Source of the DNA: Planctomycetia bacterium
GTDB lineage: Bacteria > Planctomycetota > Planctomycetia > Gemmatales > HRBIN36
DNA: 64,000 nt
Assembly (NCBI GenBank): GCA_016795155.1
Contig: JAEUIE010000019.1
Location: 124,001 to 188,000, forward strand
Direction: 5' to 3'
Shown: one piece after another, positions 5,926 through 62,219 of the stretch
Position numbering within the stretch: position 1 is the stretch's first letter
Layout of the letters: each line of letters opens with the position of its first letter
Made by a program: the position numbers and the translations under genes
The notes under the pieces: model-generated
Told to the model about the DNA's origin: nothing
Databases searched by the model: none
Seen by the model: only the letters and a program-made list of their open reading frames with translations

Positions 5926-6780
5926 TTATTTCGAAATCGATTGAGCGCCACCAGGACGACGTCGAATAATCGCGCTGTTGGAAGTCTTTCGAGGATTACG
6001 TGTCTTGCCGCCCTTGGCAGATTTCCCAGTAGGCGAACAGGGATGGCGACCACCCTTGGATCGACCTTCACCACCGCCCAGTGGGTGTGCCACGGGATTC
6101 ATGGCTGTACCGCGATTGTGAGGACGACGTCCCAACCATCGCTTGCGACCAGCCTTGCCGAGGGAAATATTCATATGGTCTTTGTTGCCCAGCTCACCAA
6201 TCGTGGCTCGGCATTCCACAGAAACGCGACGCATTTCACCGGAAGGCAGCGTGATCTGTGCCCAACTGCCCTCACGAGCAGTCAGAACGGAAGCGGTACC
6301 TGCGGAGCGAGCGATCTGCCCACCGTGACCGGGAATCATCTCGATGTTATGCACCTGCATACCGAGAGGCACGCGGCGAAGAGGCATACAGTTGCCAACG
6401 CGTGGCTCAGCCTGCTCACCACTTTGAATCTTGTCTCCTGCCTTCAAGCCTTCTGGAGCAAGTATGTAATTCAGAATGCCATCGGTATATTTAACCAGGG
6501 CAATGCGACAACTGCGGTTGGGATCATACTCAATCGCCACCACCTCTGCCCAGGTGTTGTCTTTCTTCCGCTTGAAGTCGATCAACCGATAACGGCGTTT
6601 GTGGCCACCCCCACGGAACCGGCTGGTGGTGTACCCTTGATTATTACGGCCGCCTTTGCGCTTGTACGGGGCAAGTAACGACTTCTCGGGTTTACGGTGC
6701 TTATCCGTCAGCTCAGCAAAATCGCTGACAGTAAACTGTCTGCGACTCTGCGTCACCGGCTTGAATGTCTTGATACCCAT
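5926..6780 (-). CDS. rplB: 50S ribosomal protein L2
   Basis: L2 is required for subunit association and peptidyl-transferase activity. The 284-residue protein starts [16 protein letters not shown], with [30 protein letters not shown] near the N-terminus and the catalytic-region signature [15 protein letters not shown] near the C-terminus, including the conserved His. Length is a little above the usual 275. It lies between rplW and rpsS. Confidence 0.97.
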
Positions 6781-6830
6781 TTCTGCTTATCCTTCAGCAC
6801 TCCAGCTGCATGCCAGAGGTTGTGTTTCAA

Positions 6831-7154
6831 TTAGATAAAGTCGATCTTGTCTTCCGTGTGCAGCTTGACGATGGCTTTCTTCCAGTTGGAAAGCTTCCCT
6901 TCAAGCCCCTTGAAGCGTTTGTGCTTGCCCAGGCAGTTCATGGTACGGACACCTACCACGCGCACTTTGAACAGATGCTCGATGGCATCACGGATCTGAA
7001 GCTTATCTGCCAGTGGATGCACTTCGAAGGTATACGAATTGTAGCGGGTGGACTGGTGTGTGCCCTTTTCGGTAACCAGCGGACGCAGAACGATCTGGTG
7101 CGGTTCGAGTTCAGGACCGTATGCGACAGTGTTAACGTTGGCTCTGGTTGACAT
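6831..7154 (-). CDS. rplW: 50S ribosomal protein L23
   Basis: L23 is the docking site for trigger factor and SRP at the exit tunnel. The 107-residue product has VLRPLVTEKGT (the L23 start motif), YTFEVHPLADKLQIRDAIEHLFKVRVVGVRTMNCLGKHKR, and a standard C-terminus. A 15-20 residue N-terminal leader precedes the core. It follows rplD by 14 bases. Confidence 0.95.
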   Translation of the reverse strand: MSTRANVNTVAYGPELEPHQIVLRPLVTEKGTHQSTRYNSYTFEVHPLADKLQIRDAIEHLFKVRVVGVRTMNCLGKHKRFKGLEGKLSNWKKAIVKLHTEDKIDFI

Positions 7155-7168
7155 GGGCCTGCATCTCC

Positions 7169-7828
7169 CTATTTGGCAGCCTTCTCAACAGCAGGCTTTC
7201 GCAGTGCTTCCAGCGCATCGCGCGTCAGCAGCAGACGTTTCCGCTTGAGGATGGTGTAAGTATTGAAATCAGAAACAGGGTAGAAATCGACACCCTTGAT
7301 ATTGCGTACTGAACGGTATGTCTTGTCATCGGGGCCAGCTACGCCGATCAGCAGCGTCTGGCCGTTCAATTTCAGGTTTTTGAGCACGCCGGCCATGGCC
7401 TTGGTCTTGCCGTCAGCGCTGGCCAGTGAATCAACTATGACTGCCTCGTTGTCCTGGAATTTGCTCAGGACTGCCATCTTGCGTGCCAGTCGAACAGCCT
7501 TCTTCGGCATGTGGAATTCGTAATCGCGTGGCTTGGGGCCTTTGCTAGTTCCGCCACCACGTCGCTTATTGGTTCGCTTGGATCCAACACGGGCATTACC
7601 CGTGCCCTTCTGCCTGAAGAGCTTTTTGGTTGAACCAGCAACTTCACCGCGGCGCAACGTGCTGTGGGTACCTGCACGCTGATTCGCCAGATGCATGACC
7701 ACAACATCGTGAAGCAATTGTTTGTTGACGGAACCACCAAAATCTGCAGGGTCAATCTCCACAGCACCAACGGCCTGGCCCTGGGTGTTCAGCACATCAA
7801 CTTTGAGTTTGGCGAGTTTCTCTGCCAT
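7169..7828 (-). CDS. rplD: 50S ribosomal protein L4
   Basis: L4 lines the exit tunnel and in E. coli represses the S10 operon. The 219-residue product has the tunnel-loop region AGTHSTLRRGEVAGSTKKLFRQKGTGNARVGS and the C-terminal domain with VDSLASADGKTKAMAGVL and YPVSDFNTYTILKRKRLLLTRDALEAL. It directly follows rpsJ: the L3 gene that normally lies between them is absent, and only 100 bases separate the two genes. Confidence 0.96.
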   Translation of the reverse strand: MAEKLAKLKVDVLNTQGQAVGAVEIDPADFGGSVNKQLLHDVVVMHLANQRAGTHSTLRRGEVAGSTKKLFRQKGTGNARVGSKRTNKRRGGGTSKGPKPRDYEFHMPKKAVRLARKMAVLSKFQDNEAVIVDSLASADGKTKAMAGVLKNLKLNGQTLLIGVAGPDDKTYRSVRNIKGVDFYPVSDFNTYTILKRKRLLLTRDALEALRKPAVEKAAK

Positions 7829-50240: not shown

Positions 50241-51053
50241 TTATAGTTGAACTGTCACGCACATAAAGGTAGCTGGGATACAAGTGCCTCGGCCTGTGTC
50301 AGTGTTCTGAACCCGTGCCAACTCAAGGAGCTGTTGAGAAAGTTCTTCCTCTTTTCCTTGCTTCTGTGCTGCTTCAAAGGCATTCATCGTTGGGCCATAA
50401 TAATGCCTGAATTGGCCAATGAACTCAGTGGGGTTCTTGTTTGCAGAGATGAAGTAGAATGTATGTTTCTGCAATGAGATTCTCTCACTGGGTATCCCTG
50501 TTTGGCCAAATCTCAAAAAGATGTCCTCCTCCACTCCCCATCTCATCGGGCTGATAAATCCTTCTGGGGGTGGAGGAGTAAATGTGGAACTGATTTTTAG
50601 AACCTGAGAGACAAATGTCGGATCGTTTGGTATCCAGTTACCCATCACAATTCGACCACCTGGTCTTGTGACACGTACCATCTCCTTGGCTACATCAAAC
50701 GGCTTAGGCGCGAACATGGCACCAAAAACACTGAGTGTCAGATCAAAAGAGTGATCGCAAACACCTTGCAAATCGCATGCATCCCCCTCTCGAAAGACGA
50801 TTCCTTCGATCCCTTCTTCCGCAACTCTGCTGTTTCCGGCATCAACCAGATTCCTGGCGATGTCGATTCCGACGACCTTAGCACCATGACGTGCTAAGGG
50901 TATTGCCGTGGTGCCATCTCCACATCCCAGGTCAAGAACATGCATGCCGGTTGAGATGCCAAGTGATTCGACAAGAGTTTCTCCAGACTTCCGCATGAAG
51001 GCTGCAATTCTGGTAAAGTCGCCTTTTTCCCATAGCGCCTTGTTCGCGTTCAT
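50241..51053 (-). CDS. Class I SAM-dependent methyltransferase
   Basis: A 270-residue cytosolic methyltransferase. SAM-binding motif I is VLDLGCGDGTTAIPLA (about residues 40-55), the acidic residue of motif II is VVGIDIA, and motif IV is SFDLTLSVFGAMFAP. It belongs to the UbiE/type-11 group; the substrate is unknown. It starts within the stop of the AhpD-like gene (ATGA overlap), so the two proteins are made together. It should be co-expressed only if the upstream TGA is read through or tolerated. Confidence 0.88.
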   Translation of the reverse strand: MNANKALWEKGDFTRIAAFMRKSGETLVESLGISTGMHVLDLGCGDGTTAIPLARHGAKVVGIDIARNLVDAGNSRVAEEGIEGIVFREGDACDLQGVCDHSFDLTLSVFGAMFAPKPFDVAKEMVRVTRPGGRIVMGNWIPNDPTFVSQVLKISSTFTPPPPEGFISPMRWGVEEDIFLRFGQTGIPSERISLQKHTFYFISANKNPTEFIGQFRHYYGPTMNAFEAAQKQGKEEELSQQLLELARVQNTDTGRGTCIPATFMCVTVQL

Positions 51054-51601
51054 CTTGCCATCCTCATAGTAGGTTCAGGATCGACCCCGAGTCCATCGAG
51101 TACACGATTGATAAAGTTGAAGTAGCCAATGCAATGCACCGCATCCACCAGTTCGACATCGGATAAGCCAAGTTGCCTCAGGCTTTCCAAATCATTGCGT
51201 CCTGTTTCAGTGGGATTTTTCGTCAGCTTAACTGCATAATCAAGGATGGCTCGTTCCCGGTCAGTAAGATCAGCTTTACGATAGTCCGACTGCATCGTTT
51301 GGCGTTCTTCATCGCTGGCGACCACCGACCGGAGGTCGTTTTCATGCGATTCCATTCAGTAGAAACAGCCATTAACTTGTGACACCACAGTTGCAATGAA
51401 AACCCGCTCTCGCTTGGTGATCCCAGTGGATGCATCCATAATCTGGCAGTAGAGGTCAAAGCCATGGTTCATCGTGTCGGGACGTAGTGACTGTAGCTGA
51501 GCAATGTTGGGAACTTTGCCAGAGCGTTTTCGTACCTTGCCGTAAACCTCAGCTAGTTTTCCGGAGGCTTCTGTCTCAGGTACCGTTTGCACCCATGCCA
51601 T
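51050..51601 (-). CDS. AhpD-like peroxidase-related protein, predicted selenoprotein (TGA = Sec at codon 82)
   Basis: A 184-codon frame interrupted by one TGA at 51356-51358. Both sides belong to the carboxymuconolactone decarboxylase/AhpD-like fold: ITKRERVFIATVVSQVNGCFY, then TGA, then MESHENDL. AhpD proteins have Cys-x2-Cys-x3-His here, so TGA replaces the second, reactive Cys (Cys79-x2-Sec82-x3-His86). A fdhF-like hairpin follows (see 51319). The C-terminal half (TDRERAILDYAVKLTKNPTETG, then LSDVELVDAVHCIGYFNFINR) is intact. Read normally, translation would stop after 81 residues and restart at the ATG just after TGA. Probable function is peroxide reduction. It lies downstream of a LysR gene and overlaps the methyltransferase gene. 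Confidence 0.8.
51311..51350 (-). promoter_or_regulatory. Predicted bacterial SECIS element of the AhpD-like gene
   Basis: Bases 51319-51338 form CGACC-T-CC, loop GGTC, GG-T-GGTCG: a 5-bp stem, a U-U mismatch, two G-C pairs and a GGUC loop. The E. coli fdhF SECIS has the same arrangement (stem, unpaired U, short stem, GGUC loop). The loop begins 25 bases after the TGA. An outer 5-bp stem (ATCGC with GCGAT) spans 51311-51350. It lies in the coding sequence, as bacterial SECIS elements do. Confidence 0.7.
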
Positions 51602-51705: not shown

Positions 51706-52635
51706 TTAGCTGGGCTTATGGGAATTCTGTGAATCAAGAAAGTAAAGGAACAACCTGGCAGGAGTAGTGACCACACCTCGATCATCGGTGATAACATAAA
51801 TATTTCTGTCGCATTGCAGGTCAGCGAAGGAAACACTCTTGATCCGACCTGCATCCAGATCCTCCTGGATGGCACATTGAGACAGTACCGCCAGACCCAT
51901 CTTACGGAGCACAGCTTTTTTGATGGCTTCGTTGCTGCCCAATTCCAGAACGATATGGAAATCACTCAGTGAACGATTGATTCTTTCGAGAGCAGTTTCA
52001 AAACAGTGCCTCAAGCCTGATCCCGTTTCTCTCAGGATGAGCGGATACTGAGTCAATTCCTTGGAAGTCACCTTCTTCTTACGCGACAGCACGTGCCCCG
52101 GCGGAACAGCCAGTAGCATTCTGTCGCTAGCCAGGAAACGAAACTTCAGATGAGGATTCTCAATCAATCGACCCACCAGGCCAATGTGTGCTTTTCCCGT
52201 TCCAATCAGTTCAAAGACGTTGTTGCTATCACTCACGGAAACTCGCACACGAATCTGGGGATACTGCTTGACGAAAACATCCAGTATGCCAGGCAACAGA
52301 TGCTCACCCGGAACTGAACTGGCTGCGATAATCAGTTCTCCTGCAGGTATCGACTTCTTACCGGTAATTTCTCCTTCGGCATCTCCGTACAACTGCATGA
52401 TTTTCTGAGCATACTCATACAGTGTTCGCCCGGATGGCGTGAGTTCTAGCCGACCACCGCGACGAGTGAAGAGTTGGGTCTTCAAAGACCGTTCCAGTTC
52501 CTGGATACGCTGACTTACAGCTGACTGGGTTAATCGAAGTGACTTAGCAGCTGCTGTGAAACTGCATGTCTCTGCCGCCAGGGCGAAGGTGGCTAAGTGT
52601 GGAAGTGCATGCTTATCGTGACTCTGAGCCATCAT
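51706..52635 (-). CDS. LysR-family transcriptional regulator
   Basis: A 309-residue DNA-binding regulator. The N-terminal winged helix-turn-helix is at about 10-70 (LATFALAAETCSFTAAAKSLRLTQSAVSQRIQELERSLKTQLFTRRGGRLELT), followed by a linker helix and a periplasmic-binding-protein-like effector domain (GELIIAASSVPGEHLLPGILDVF). The effector domain resembles the CysB/CbbR group that senses small anions or metabolites. The start may also be GTG 52638 or ATG 52632. It is co-directional with the AhpD-like gene 104 bases downstream and probably regulates it. Confidence 0.92.
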   Translation of the reverse strand: MMAQSHDKHALPHLATFALAAETCSFTAAAKSLRLTQSAVSQRIQELERSLKTQLFTRRGGRLELTPSGRTLYEYAQKIMQLYGDAEGEITGKKSIPAGELIIAASSVPGEHLLPGILDVFVKQYPQIRVRVSVSDSNNVFELIGTGKAHIGLVGRLIENPHLKFRFLASDRMLLAVPPGHVLSRKKKVTSKELTQYPLILRETGSGLRHCFETALERINRSLSDFHIVLELGSNEAIKKAVLRKMGLAVLSQCAIQEDLDAGRIKSVSFADLQCDRNIYVITDDRGVVTTPARLFLYFLDSQNSHKPS

Positions 52636-52669
52636 CACTCTAATTCTTGTTGTCCAGTGGGGAAATCGC

Positions 52670-55453: not shown

Positions 55454-55747
55454 GCCGGTTGCCTCTCATTGTGGATTCAGTGTCTTGTCCGAAGCTCAAG
55501 GATATCACGCTACCACATCGTGTCATTCCATCTTTAGATGGTATTTCAGCAAGGTCTAGACTCGATCATTCAGAACTTGTGAGGCTGGAAGTCACCAACG
55601 TATTGTGTATTTCAAGGGGTAGTCGCGTGTTTCTTAGTTCTACGAGTTACTTTTTTCGAGTTACTTTGTTAAATGATTACATGAGGTTTGCAATCAGGGT
55701 GTCGATTGTAAACTCTTGGTCTCTTACTCATTCCATCGGAGAGAAGC

Positions 55748-56308
55748 ATGAAGACGCGACGCAGTTTCATCTGCGGATCGCTGGCAGGCATGATGGTCTG
55801 TGCGACTGTCGTGATGGCTGGTGATTTGAAGTCCGGCCCGCAGCCGGGTAAAGGGGTCACTCCATTTGATCCCCTGAATATCTACAACGCCGATAGCCCC
55901 AGCAGGAACGGCAAGGAGAGTTGCTTTATCTGACAGCTCGGCAGCAAACCAGTCGCTTTGGTCTTCGCACGCGATACCGACGACGCCTTGGCCAGTTTGG
56001 TCAAGAAACTTGATGCCGAAGTTGCCAGAATCGGGAAAGCCAAAGTATCAGCAGTCATCATCTTCCTGGCCGACGGCGATGATATGAAAAACAAGATCGA
56101 GCAGTTTAAGAAGGATCATAACGTCAAACATGTCAGCCTTGCTCTTGACGGACCCAAAGGTCCTGAAGACTACAAGATCGCAAAAGAAGCTGCGGTGACG
56201 GCAATCCTCTACAAGGGCAAAAAGGTCAAATCGAATCACGCATTCGAAAAGTTTGCTGCGAAGGACGTCGAGACAGTTGTCAAAGACTTGTCAGAGATGA
56301 GCAAATAA
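55748..56308 (+). CDS. Tat-exported thioredoxin-like protein, predicted selenoprotein (TGA = Sec at codon 62)
   Basis: A 187-codon frame with one TGA at 55931-55933. The start has a Tat-type signal (KTRRSFICGSLAGMMVCATVVMAG) and a GGAGAG ribosome site. The motif is Cys59-F-I-TGA62-QLGSKPVALVFARD; planctomycete relatives normally have C-x2-C followed by KPVVLVFAR-like text here, so TGA replaces the second Cys. The frame continues unbroken through VSAVIIFLADGDDMKNKIEQF to LSEMSK. A hairpin follows the TGA (55944). Its function is probably redox exchange in the periplasm. A standard annotation would give a 61-residue stub and a separate hypothetical gene starting at TTG 55958. Confidence 0.78.
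55944..55968 (+). promoter_or_regulatory. Predicted SECIS of the thioredoxin-like gene
   Basis: Hairpin with stem ACCA/TGGT (55948-55951 and 55959-55962), extended by AA/TT and GC/GC pairs across two single-base bulges. The loop is GTCGCTT, starting with G and 18 bases after the TGA, in the usual range for bacterial SECIS elements. It is weaker than the one at 51319. Confidence 0.5.
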
Positions 56309-56349: not shown

Positions 56350-56381
56350 CACCGCCTGGCGATCCGCTCAGGCGGTGTTTT
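56350..56381 (+). terminator. Rho-independent terminator of the thioredoxin-like gene
   Basis: A perfect 9-bp stem CACCGCCTG/CAGGCGGTG with a 10-base loop, followed directly by TTTT and a T-rich stretch. It lies 42 bases after the stop at 56308. It supports the whole frame up to 56308, across the internal TGA, being one transcription unit. Confidence 0.85.
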
Positions 56382-57143: not shown

Positions 57144-60100
57144 CTACTTGCTGTTCAATGCACGCTTCACTTCCCATTCTTTGACCAGGCAGTAAAGACA
57201 AGGAGCGATGAACAGCGTGATCAGATTGACCGCCATGCCGCCGATACTGGGAATGGCCATTGGTTGCATGACGTCAGACCCACGTCCATGTGTCATAAAG
57301 ATTGGTAAGAGCCCGATAAAAGTCGTGGCCGTTGACATGAGAATTGGGCGAATACGTTGAATGGCAGCATCGAGTACATATTCGCGCACCTCTTGACGGG
57401 ATCGCGGAGTAACTTTCCCAAATGCTCGCTCCAGATAATCGAGCATCACAATACTGCTGTCGTCAATAACACCGAAGAGGGCGATGAAGCCGACCCAGAC
57501 GGCAACGCTCATGTTGGCTCCCCAAAGATAAACCATGATGAAAGCTCCAGCAGCAGAGGTGAGCATGCCAAAGTAGACAACGAAGCCGAGCCACCATTTA
57601 CCAAGGCCAACATAAATCATGACCACCATAGTGATGAGCACGAGTGGTACAAGCCATGAGAGACGGGCCATGGCACGTTGCTGATTCTCGAACTGCCCCG
57701 ACCATTTCCAGTAGTATCCCGGAGGTACGACAAGCGTCGCCTCCTGGTGCCGTCCGGCGGCAACAAGCTCGTCACTTTTCCGTTTTTCTTCCTGCAACAG
57801 CTTTTCTGCGTCTTCAACGACGCTTACCTCATCACGATCACGTGTGTTCATCGTGACATAGCCTACAAGAAGTCCCCCTTCGCTCTTGAGTTCCAGGGGC
57901 CCAACTGTGTAACGAATCTTGGCGACCTGGGTAATAGGGATATGTGCCCCGGTAGATGTGGGCACGAGTACTCGTTCAAGTTCTTTGAAGTTGTCTCGGA
58001 GTTCACGTAAATAGCGTACGCGGATCGGGTAACGTTCCCGACCTTCAACGGATGTCGTCAAATTCTCACCGCCGATGGCGATCTCGATGATGTCTTGAAC
58101 ATCGCGAATTTTAACACCGTAGCGAGCTATGGCCAAGCGGTCGATTTCATACTCGATGTACGGCTTGCCAAGGATTCGGTCGGCAACAATGTCAGTGGCA
58201 CCTGGAACCTTGCGGAGAAGCTGCTCGATTTGCAGTCCAATGCGTTCAATTTCTTTAACGTCGGCACCGAAGATTTTCACGCCCATCATGGCCCGGAAAC
58301 CGGTTTGTAGCATGATGATGCGCGTTTGTATGGGTTGCAGCCACGTTGGGAGCACCCCAGGGATGTTGGTCTTGGATTGAAGCTCCTGCAGGATTTCCTG
58401 TTTAGTGATGCGACGCTGCCCGCCTTTGCCGTCTGAGACCATCCGCCAATCGTCTTCTGGCTTCAGGATAATCACCGTTTCAATCATGCCGATAGGGGCA
58501 GGATCAAGTGCAGTCTCAGCACGGCCGAGTTTCCCGACGACACTTTGCACTTCAGGAACGGTACGAATGGCGGCGTCTTGCCTGGAAACAACATCAAGTG
58601 ATTGTGGTAACGACGCCGAAGGAAGCATGGAGGGCATAAATAGGAATGAGCCTTCGTCGAGAGGCGGCATGAACTCTCTGCCCAGGCCAGGGAAGGTCTT
58701 ACTGAGATTGAGCCAAACGCTGTTGTTGGTGATATCGACACCGATCTTGCGTAACCCGAACTCAAGCGGATAAGCCATACGAGCGAAACCAAGCCAGCAA
58801 GTCAGACCTAGCAGTGAAATGAAAAGAGGGATAACAAGGAATAGGAACTTATTGTTAAGCACCCACCGCAGTGTTGGTCGAAAGACTGCATTAACACCTC
58901 GGGCAACAAGATTCTGTTCGAGTGGGATAAGTCGTTCTCGGCCCATGCGGTATACGGCGGCAGCAATCATAATCCCGATGCCAAAGGAAGTCGGCCAGCC
59001 GCTCCAGCGACCGCTGATGCCGAATCCCCATAGCAGGACTTCATGCATGGCAAACGTCGCCGCGATACCAACAGCAACGCCAACGAGTAGTGACTTAAGC
59101 CTTGACCAGGTCCCTGACCTGACAAGGTAATAGCTCAGCACAGGAACAAGCGTGATAGCCAGAATGACGGAAGCAGAAATAGCAAGTGTCTTGGTGTAAG
59201 CCAAGGGCTTGAAGAGTTTGCCTTCCTGATCGGCTAAGGCAAAAATCGGAATGAAGGAAATGATGGTATTAGTCACGGAGGTTAAGATAGCGCTACCCAC
59301 TTCGCTGGCAGCTTCGGCAACGACCTCTTTGTGCGGCCTGTTAGGCTCTGTGGAACAGCGGCGGTAGATATTCTCGGTCATGATAATGCCCATGTCAGCG
59401 ACATCACCGATGGCAATGGCTACGCCAGCCAGCGACATGATGTTGCTATCGACGCCGAGGTAGTACATAACGATAAAGCTCATCGCCACCGAGAGCGGAA
59501 GAGTAGGAACGATGGCAAGCGAACTACGCAGGTGCAGCAGAAAAATGATGACGACGCAAGCAACAGCAATAGCCTCTTCCGTCAATGCTTCTCTTAAGGT
59601 GTCGATAGTCTCCAGCACGATGTCAGTACGGTCATAAAAGGAGACAAGGCTGACGGGAGCCTGTTTGCCACTCGCCAATGTGATTTTCAGCCCTGGTTCA
59701 ATCTCCTTGATTTTGGCTTTCACCCGCTCTAGGACATGCAGCGGGTTTTCACCATAGCGCATGATGACGACACCACCCACAGCTTCCCGGCCGCCCTTGT
59801 CGAGTGCGCCACGACGGAAATCGGGCCCAAGCTGAACCGTGGCAACATTCTTGATGAAGATCGGTGTGCCGCCTTCCTGGCGGATGACGATATTTTCCAC
59901 ATCCTGAATACTCTTAACAAAGCCAACACCACGGATGAAGAACTCATAATTGTTGTTTTCGAGAACCTTGGCTCCGACATCAATGTTACTGCGACGGACG
60001 GCTTCATAGATTTCCGGCAACATCACCCGCTGAGCACGCATCTTGTCCGGATGAACATCAATTTGATACTGCTTGACGTATCCACCGACCGAAGCCACTT

Positions 60101-60620
60101 CCGAAACACCATCCACGGATTGGAGTTGGTAGCGAACGTACCAGTCCTGCAACGAACGAAGCTGTCCCAGATCAGCTCCATCTGCTTCCAGCGTATACCA
60201 ATAGACTTGTCCCAGAGCCGTGGCATCGGGGCCAAGTACCGGAACAACACCCTGCGGCATCTTGCCCATTGCGACACTCAAACGTTCCATGACGCGAGAG
60301 CGTGCCCAGTAGTAGTCAGCTTCGTCCTTAAAAATGACGAAGACCATCGAGAAGCCAAACGCAGAGGCTGATCGAATGGACTTAACTAGCGGCGTTCCTT
60401 GAAGGCTCGTAGTAAGGGGGTAGGTCACCTGATCTTCGACGTCCTGCGGCGAGCGCCCTGGCCAGTCAGCAAAGACGATCACCTGTTTCTCACCGATGTC
60501 AGGAATAGCATCGACAGGGGTATTCTTGAGGCAGTAATACCCACCCACGAGTATGGCGATTGCGGCCAGCAACACCAGGAAGCGGTTGTTCAGGCACCAG
60601 TTAATAATGAATGCAATCAT
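57144..60620 (-). CDS. RND heavy-metal efflux permease (CusA type)
   Basis: A 1158-residue inner-membrane permease of the Cu/Ag-type HME-RND group. The signature PVDAIPDIGEKQVIVFADWPGRSPQDVEDQVTYPL is at the N-terminus, followed by SIRSASAFGFSMVFVIFKDEADYYWARSRVMERL. GREFMPPLDEGSFLFMPSM resembles the methionine-containing cleft of CusA. It is about 110 residues longer than CusA, with extra hydrophobic segments in the middle (LKSLLVGVAVGIAATFAMHEVLLWGF). It starts 22 bases after its adaptor gene; no TolC partner is in the window. Confidence 0.93.
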   Translation of the reverse strand: MIAFIINWCLNNRFLVLLAAIAILVGGYYCLKNTPVDAIPDIGEKQVIVFADWPGRSPQDVEDQVTYPLTTSLQGTPLVKSIRSASAFGFSMVFVIFKDEADYYWARSRVMERLSVAMGKMPQGVVPVLGPDATALGQVYWYTLEADGADLGQLRSLQDWYVRYQLQSVDGVSEVASVGGYVKQYQIDVHPDKMRAQRVMLPEIYEAVRRSNIDVGAKVLENNNYEFFIRGVGFVKSIQDVENIVIRQEGGTPIFIKNVATVQLGPDFRRGALDKGGREAVGGVVIMRYGENPLHVLERVKAKIKEIEPGLKITLASGKQAPVSLVSFYDRTDIVLETIDTLREALTEEAIAVACVVIIFLLHLRSSLAIVPTLPLSVAMSFIVMYYLGVDSNIMSLAGVAIAIGDVADMGIIMTENIYRRCSTEPNRPHKEVVAEAASEVGSAILTSVTNTIISFIPIFALADQEGKLFKPLAYTKTLAISASVILAITLVPVLSYYLVRSGTWSRLKSLLVGVAVGIAATFAMHEVLLWGFGISGRWSGWPTSFGIGIMIAAAVYRMGRERLIPLEQNLVARGVNAVFRPTLRWVLNNKFLFLVIPLFISLLGLTCWLGFARMAYPLEFGLRKIGVDITNNSVWLNLSKTFPGLGREFMPPLDEGSFLFMPSMLPSASLPQSLDVVSRQDAAIRTVPEVQSVVGKLGRAETALDPAPIGMIETVIILKPEDDWRMVSDGKGGQRRITKQEILQELQSKTNIPGVLPTWLQPIQTRIIMLQTGFRAMMGVKIFGADVKEIERIGLQIEQLLRKVPGATDIVADRILGKPYIEYEIDRLAIARYGVKIRDVQDIIEIAIGGENLTTSVEGRERYPIRVRYLRELRDNFKELERVLVPTSTGAHIPITQVAKIRYTVGPLELKSEGGLLVGYVTMNTRDRDEVSVVEDAEKLLQEEKRKSDELVAAGRHQEATLVVPPGYYWKWSGQFENQQRAMARLSWLVPLVLITMVVMIYVGLGKWWLGFVVYFGMLTSAAGAFIMVYLWGANMSVAVWVGFIALFGVIDDSSIVMLDYLERAFGKVTPRSRQEVREYVLDAAIQRIRPILMSTATTFIGLLPIFMTHGRGSDVMQPMAIPSIGGMAVNLITLFIAPCLYCLVKEWEVKRALNSK

Positions 60621-60641
60621 GGCTGAACTACTCCTGGTGGA

Positions 60642-62219
60642 TTAATGGCCTTCGTGACCTTTGGGAGCTGTTGGCTTGGCTGGGGTTGGCGCACCACCAC
60701 CATGTCCGGAGTGTAAGTTTGCAGCCGACTGGCCTTGTGGATATAGCAGGCTGGGCATGCCAGCGATTTGTTGCTGGCTATCGAGCAAGAAACCGCCGCG
60801 AACGACAACGCGATCGCCAGCTTTCAGTCCGCTCAAGACTGGATAATACTCAACGACTTTGTTTGCATCATTCTTCCCTTCTGTCTTGGGGCCGATGATC
60901 ACTTCAACAAGTTCATAAGCTCCGTCCTTTTTCAATCGATAGACAATGCGTCGTACACCCGTATCGAGAACTGCTGTCACTGGGATAGCCAGCACTTTTC
61001 CTTGGGGAGCTTGGGGACTCACGCTGACAGGTGGTGTAGCTTTGGCAATATCGTGTCCTGCATGTTCGTCATGAACAGTTTCGCCTGATTTCGTGGGAGC
61101 TTGCTTTACGTCTGGTTTTAATGTCGATGGCTTTGCATCAGGGATTCGCTCCAATGGCATCTGACAAATGGTACATTTGCCTGGCTTATCTTGAATGACT
61201 TCCGGGTGCATCGGGCAAACGTGCTTTCCTTCGAGCCCGGTCGCTTCGGGGCTTCCATCCGAACGGAGTCGCACGTTGATGATCGCCGAGGCGTACATGG
61301 CTGGCTTCAGACGCCGGTCGGGATTCTTGAGATTCACACGGACTTTGACCGTGCGGCTTTTATCATCAAGAAACGGATCAATAAAAGTCACCGTGCCCTG
61401 GAAGGCTTCGTTGGGATAAGCTTCCAGCGATACTTCTACTGATTGGCCATATCGTACCCAAGACAGGTCTGATTCGTAGACATCGATGTAAAGCCAGATC
61501 GGATCAAGATCAGCAATGCGATAGAGAGGATCGCCTTCCTTGACGTACTGACCGACGCGAACGCTCTTTTCCACTACGGTGCCGCCGATGGGCGAGTACA
61601 GCGTCAGATGGGTTTGGATCTTGCGGCTCTTTTCAATCGATTCAATCTGCTCGGGAAGAATACCCAGAAGACGTAACTTGGCTCGTGAAGCTTCGAGAGT
61701 GGTTTCAAAATAAGTACGGTCACCCTGAGCTTTCTGAACCGCATCGATCATGCGTATGAGTTCACCCTGGGCAACAAAGAGTTCCGGGCTGTAGATGTCA
61801 ACAAGATGATCTCCTTGTTTGACCTGGATGCCGGTGAAATCAGCATAAAGCTTTTCAACGCGACCCGCAATACGGGCAGTAATGTAGGCGATGCGTGGTT
61901 CGTTGTAATCGAGTTTGCCAACCGTACGAATGACCTTGGCGAGTTCTCGGAAAGAAATAGCTTCCGTTTCAAGTCCAATTCGCTCCTGATAGACCGATGC
62001 CTCAGCTTGTTGCTCTTTCACAGGAATCAGTTTCATTCCGCATATTGGGCAATCGCCTGGTTTGGGCGAGCGGATTTGAGGATGCATCGAACAAGTCCAA
62101 TCACCTTGCTCGGTGGCTAGTACAGATTTTTGCGGCCAGTAACGGTACGCCAGGTAAACGGCACCTGCGAGGAGGCTCAAGACAACAATGCTGCGAAGCC
62201 AAGGCGCGAAGCGGTTCAT
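60642..62219 (-). CDS. RND efflux adaptor with two heavy-metal-binding domains (CusB type)
   Basis: A 525-residue periplasmic adaptor. One membrane helix is at 8-27. A heavy-metal-binding domain follows (W41-T-CSMHPQIRSPKPGDCPICGMKLIP) and a second lies around residue 340-370 (HVCPMHPEVIQDKPGKCTICQMPLERIP). The rest is the CusB-like adaptor fold (AGRVEKLYADFTGIQVKQGDHL, then YSPIGGTVVEKSVRVGQYVKEGDPLYRIADLDPIWLYIDVYESDL). The C-terminus is His-rich (HSGHGGG, HEGH). Its ATG overlaps the ATPase stop (ATGA), so translation is coupled. Confidence 0.93.
   Translation of the reverse strand: MNRFAPWLRSIVVLSLLAGAVYLAYRYWPQKSVLATEQGDWTCSMHPQIRSPKPGDCPICGMKLIPVKEQQAEASVYQERIGLETEAISFRELAKVIRTVGKLDYNEPRIAYITARIAGRVEKLYADFTGIQVKQGDHLVDIYSPELFVAQGELIRMIDAVQKAQGDRTYFETTLEASRAKLRLLGILPEQIESIEKSRKIQTHLTLYSPIGGTVVEKSVRVGQYVKEGDPLYRIADLDPIWLYIDVYESDLSWVRYGQSVEVSLEAYPNEAFQGTVTFIDPFLDDKSRTVKVRVNLKNPDRRLKPAMYASAIINVRLRSDGSPEATGLEGKHVCPMHPEVIQDKPGKCTICQMPLERIPDAKPSTLKPDVKQAPTKSGETVHDEHAGHDIAKATPPVSVSPQAPQGKVLAIPVTAVLDTGVRRIVYRLKKDGAYELVEVIIGPKTEGKNDANKVVEYYPVLSGLKAGDRVVVRGGFLLDSQQQIAGMPSLLYPQGQSAANLHSGHGGGAPTPAKPTAPKGHEGH

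Follow-up and report, generated by a model that had tools for sequence, protein, structure and literature searches.

A gene in the window, the whole stretch of 64,000 nucleotides analyzed here, is crossed by a TGA codon, which raises the question whether this codon ends translation or is read as selenocysteine (Sec), and what kind of protein would then be made. Reading frame analysis revealed one frame on the forward strand from the ATG at 55748 to the TAA at 56306-56308 with a single in-frame TGA at 55931-55933, as the sequence-only reading had reported. The TGA lies in the context C-F-I-TGA-Q-L-G; read as Sec, it yields a product of 186 residues with the motif C59-F-I-U62, Cys59 being encoded at 55922-55924. 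The sequence GGAGAG at 55738-55743 may serve as a ribosome-binding site. A terminator-like hairpin followed by a T run was found at 56350-56377, although not directly after the stop codon as described earlier but about 42 bp away from it. Without read-through at 55931, the locus would encode a 61-residue leader peptide or a 116-residue downstream ORF starting with TTG.

Relatives of the TGA-read protein were present in all 101 nearest planctomycete genomes, and the family profile matched 59 of 392 genomes sampled across the phylum. Named records belong mostly to Gemmataceae and other Planctomycetota; a few are titled as other groups and may be mislabelled bins. Scans of genome-contig and viral-contig collections with the window protein as a single sequence returned no relatives, but an alignment used as query found them. 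In 146 aligned loci the codon at the TGA column was TGA (66), TGC (73), TGT (5), CGC (1), or AGC (1). Hence, 144 of the 146 loci carry TGA, TGC, or TGT, with Cys as the only common alternative to Sec, and the first Cys of CxxU is retained in every locus; conservation of this column goes far beyond chance. Homologues that never have Cys at this position had been named as an argument against Sec, but 78 of the 146 loci do have it. The two exceptions with Arg (CGC) or Ser (AGC) at the column, L114 and L020 (second site), keep the first Cys. Reading of the TGA as another amino acid, e.g. Trp, by a changed code or natural suppression would equally leave the frame open, which is all that speaks for it; TGG, however, was not found at the column in any of the 146 loci, and the genome contains tRNA-Sec, SelA, SelB, and SelD. 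Trp decoding was therefore rejected, and decoding as any amino acid other than Sec appears extremely improbable.

A check of the Sec machinery, proposed together with the Sec reading, identified all four components in the host genome above curated cut-offs: tRNA-Sec (C5:90415-90508, 70.7 bits), SelB (C59:93113-94993), SelA (C59:95183-96541), and SelD (C12:77743-78672, locus L127). The selD gene has an in-frame TGA of its own in SCAGUAGK; thus, the selenophosphate synthetase is itself a selenoprotein too. The TGA form of the family occurs in 46 of the 101 near genomes, and SelB was detected above cut-off in 41 of these, as counted from the listed genomes. The five TGA-form genomes with no SelB above cut-off are drafts of 59-92% completeness, among which two have SelA and two have tRNA-Sec above cut-off.

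The window's genome harbors four family members, two with Sec (the window gene and a paralogue on contig C5, 62% identical) and two with Cys (CIVC on C44, CYVC on C42). An error at 55931-55933 had been considered possible; it is practically excluded because the paralogue on the other contig and dozens of other assemblies share TGA at the same codon. Furthermore, dN/dS after the TGA was 0.04-0.29 in 11 close pairs, showing that the codons past the TGA are under purifying selection; the window/paralogue pair was saturated at synonymous sites. A true stop, be it in a pseudogene, by sequencing error, or between two separate short proteins, could be argued from the downstream ORF with its TTG start and from the weak hairpin of the window gene described below. 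It is contradicted by a codon that is always TGA or Cys in the paralogue and dozens of genomes, by the selection past the TGA, and by the full Sec machinery. The pseudogene was rejected, and a true stop in general is very improbable.

In an alignment of 53 members, S29, G30, F40, C59, C/U62, G65, V69, F73, R75, L84, G138, P139, A148, T151, and Y155 were invariant. A maximum-likelihood tree of 144 members gave seven changes between Sec and Cys by the simplest count, and well-supported branches force at least five. Sec is carried by deep branches from many planctomycete families, which suggests, the root being uncertain, that the ancestor had Sec and that Cys replaced it repeatedly. One Sec member (L073, CLYU, genome G046) with a strong hairpin (-24.2 kcal/mol) is nested among CLYC proteins and possibly represents a gain of Sec from Cys.

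Insertion of Sec would be guided by a SECIS element. A hairpin 18 nt downstream of the TGA with a G-first loop had been proposed from the sequence and was confirmed: it extends from +21 to +53 (first base of TGA = 0), i.e. from 55952 to 55984, with a bulged U (T at 55962) and, in the consensus register of the family, the 6-nt loop GCACGC at 55967-55972. Published criteria for bacterial SECIS elements are an apical loop 16-37 nt from the TGA, a G at one of the first two loop positions, and an MFE of -7.5 or lower (PMC13188914). The window hairpin has its loop at 33 nt, G as the first loop base in the consensus register, and an MFE of -10.6. It forms eight of ten consensus pairs; its folding energy is unremarkable as compared to synonymous recodings (z about -0.4 to -0.5). 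At the family level, 48 TGA members formed on average 8.9 of 10 consensus pairs as compared to 5.7 of 10 in 51 Cys members (Mann-Whitney p about 2e-14; p-values ignore relatedness). Plain shuffles separated the two groups only modestly; instead, each gene was recoded synonymously according to its own codon use, and mean energy z was then -1.87 for TGA and -0.27 for Cys members. Repeating the analysis on loci from the phylum-wide search gave -2.42 for 15 TGA and -0.66 for 26 Cys members (p about 5e-4). The hairpin is thus kept in TGA but not in Cys members beyond the constraint of the protein sequence; this selection is seen at the family level, whereas the hairpin of the window gene alone is weak by energy. 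The RNAalifold consensus comprised the upper stem only, and double-sided covariation was thin because most stem bases are fixed by the protein. Searches against Rfam found nothing. The Sec/Cys column, the Sec machinery, and the selection on the hairpin in TGA members together support the reading of the gene as a selenoprotein gene.

The structure of the window protein was predicted with a pLDDT of 90.5 and is thioredoxin-like. The best solved structural matches were ResA and TlpA/DsbE-type proteins (E values down to 1.5e-8; TM scores by target length up to 0.80); peroxiredoxins were also among the matches. According to the order of predicted elements, CxxU is located within a loop and a short helix (60-64) ahead of the strand 69-74. 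In this model the pair therefore precedes the central strand, unlike the CxxC of thioredoxin, whose place is taken by R75-D-T-D-D with an invariant R75 and without Cys; V-T is found at the place of the cis-Pro. The earlier placement of the TGA at the second Cys of a thioredoxin-type pair hence holds for the Sec/Cys column and the predicted fold, but not for the location of the pair.

The window protein resembles the thiol-disulfide oxidoreductases ResA, TlpA, and DsbE in being probably exported and in its predicted fold. It differs from them in that their CxxC follows the central strand, in lacking the Pro before the equivalent of the fourth strand, and in having no Pfam or NCBIfam redoxin match above cut-off. 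With AhpD-like and SelW-like CxxU selenoproteins the family shares a CxxU motif ending in Sec, the existence of Cys homologues, and a bacterial SECIS element; in contrast to these, to which it has no sequence match above cut-off, the window protein has a predicted thioredoxin fold and a signal peptide. In bacterial TlpA/Prx-like selenoproteins with UGC or UxxC motifs, the pair is located at the usual thioredoxin site. These proteins are likewise thioredoxin-fold selenoproteins whose pair begins with Sec (PMC13188914, Table 1 motifs).

The hydrophobic N-terminus, read by eye, suggests a signal peptide encoded at 55748-55822 and ending approximately after residue 25, and its type is conserved in the homologues, the N-termini of which look like ordinary Sec signal peptides. 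Export by the Tat pathway with folding before transport had been proposed earlier, and the MKTRRSFI of the window protein does fit the twin-arginine motif. However, the paralogue encoded in this genome has a plain Sec-type signal without this motif, as do almost all homologues: a twin-arginine pair was present in 4 of 62 N-termini, with a convincing fit only in the window protein. Folding before export is therefore not a feature of the family, and Tat export was rejected as a family trait; for the window protein itself it appears unlikely. The signal peptide as such is supported.

Taken together, it is very probable that the gene encodes an exported CxxU selenoprotein of thioredoxin fold from a planctomycete-wide family, that UGA 55931 is decoded as Sec, and that the protein acts as a selenol/thiol oxidoreductase. 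We infer Sec insertion, export, chemistry, and substrate of the window protein as follows. SelB and tRNA-Sec would decode UGA 55931 with the hairpin at 55952-55984 as guide. Once the protein is exported and its signal peptide removed, the thioredoxin-fold domain would function as oxidoreductase outside the cytoplasm, where Sec62 may attack an oxidized substrate, which could be a disulfide, a sulfenic acid, or a peroxide, and Cys59 may resolve the intermediate via a selenenyl-sulfide; both the attack by Sec62 first and the substrate are suggested by analogy only. A selenoprotein that is not a classical disulfide oxidoreductase, but e.g. a peroxidase or a carrier of metal or selenium that uses CxxU, is possible but rather doubtful. 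The location of CxxU away from the thioredoxin site, with no Cys at the normal place, and the peroxiredoxins among the structural matches would fit such a function, but the closest solved structures are thiol-disulfide oxidoreductases, and CxxC/CxxU motifs in thioredoxin folds are mostly redox motifs (PMC13188914).

Clustering of neighboring genes revealed no operon conserved throughout the family, only lineage-specific neighbors. On C5, the start of the Sec paralogue is 117 bp past the tRNA-Sec gene, with both on the same strand, and behind the paralogue lies a gene for an exported TlpA-like protein that has an in-frame TGA of its own (HWUGPC). This gene (positions 6330-7481 of locus L039 from contig C5, TGA in WUGPC at 7137), located just past the Sec paralogue, is a further selenoprotein candidate; a profile comparison of the family with this TlpA-like protein showed no sequence relation. 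In one relative, selB is preceded by a Cys homologue at a distance of about 215 bp. Five genomes, all from one genus, have a LysR-type regulator of the selenium-metabolism subfamily NF040786 (LysR_Se) beside the Sec form. According to a published description, LysR_Se is restricted to organisms that contain SelD, nearly all of which decode Sec, and occurs adjacent to sel genes (PMC5322559). The window contains a LysR_Se gene at 51706-52638 on the reverse strand (257.7 bits, cut-off 250), 3.1 kb from the Sec gene, and a possible role of its product is regulation of the gene at 55748-56308. Beside it lies an AhpD-like peroxidase-related gene (51050-51601, reverse strand) with an in-frame TGA in CFYU at 51358-51356, which belongs to a known selenoprotein family (TIGR01926, 146 bits, cut-off 81.8) and is presumably the other CxxU gene of the sequence-only reading. 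Additionally, 11 loci, including L060 (1376-1795, reverse strand), have the gene of an unnamed protein (MSLDEIKKEF...) downstream of the Sec form and in the same orientation; this protein matches no Pfam or NCBIfam model. Two long ORFs at 57144-62219 on the reverse strand resemble, by eye, an RND pump for heavy-metal efflux together with its periplasmic adaptor; motifs of CSMHP/CPMHP type recur in them.

The window protein matched no Pfam or NCBIfam model above curated cut-off, and family members gave only weak, scattered matches. The 2026 catalogue of 119 prokaryotic selenoprotein families (PMC13188914), many entries of which cite models of the scanned NCBIfam, contains no family that matches in name or domain, and neither it nor a 2022 review mentions planctomycetes. 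The family is apparently undescribed, with an earlier mention possible in the supplementary candidate lists for two planctomycetes in PMC4807772.

There is about an even chance that all of the following applies: the family is undescribed; it probably contained Sec in an early ancestor within the planctomycetes and later changed several times between Sec and Cys; its CxxU occupies a novel site in the thioredoxin fold; and it acts outside the cytoplasm, at least partly under the control of LysR_Se, and perhaps alongside a further exported selenoprotein (UGPC, TlpA-like) whose gene lies beside that of the paralogue. With this finding, the bacterial selenoproteins gain a widespread family, from a phylum absent from two recent catalogues, and ordinary annotation would split such genes at the TGA. 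The moved redox motif calls for a mechanism. Sec and Cys versions coexist within genomes, with two of each in the present one, sometimes beside selenium regulators or Sec machinery; therefore, the question why lineages keep or drop selenocysteine becomes directly testable.
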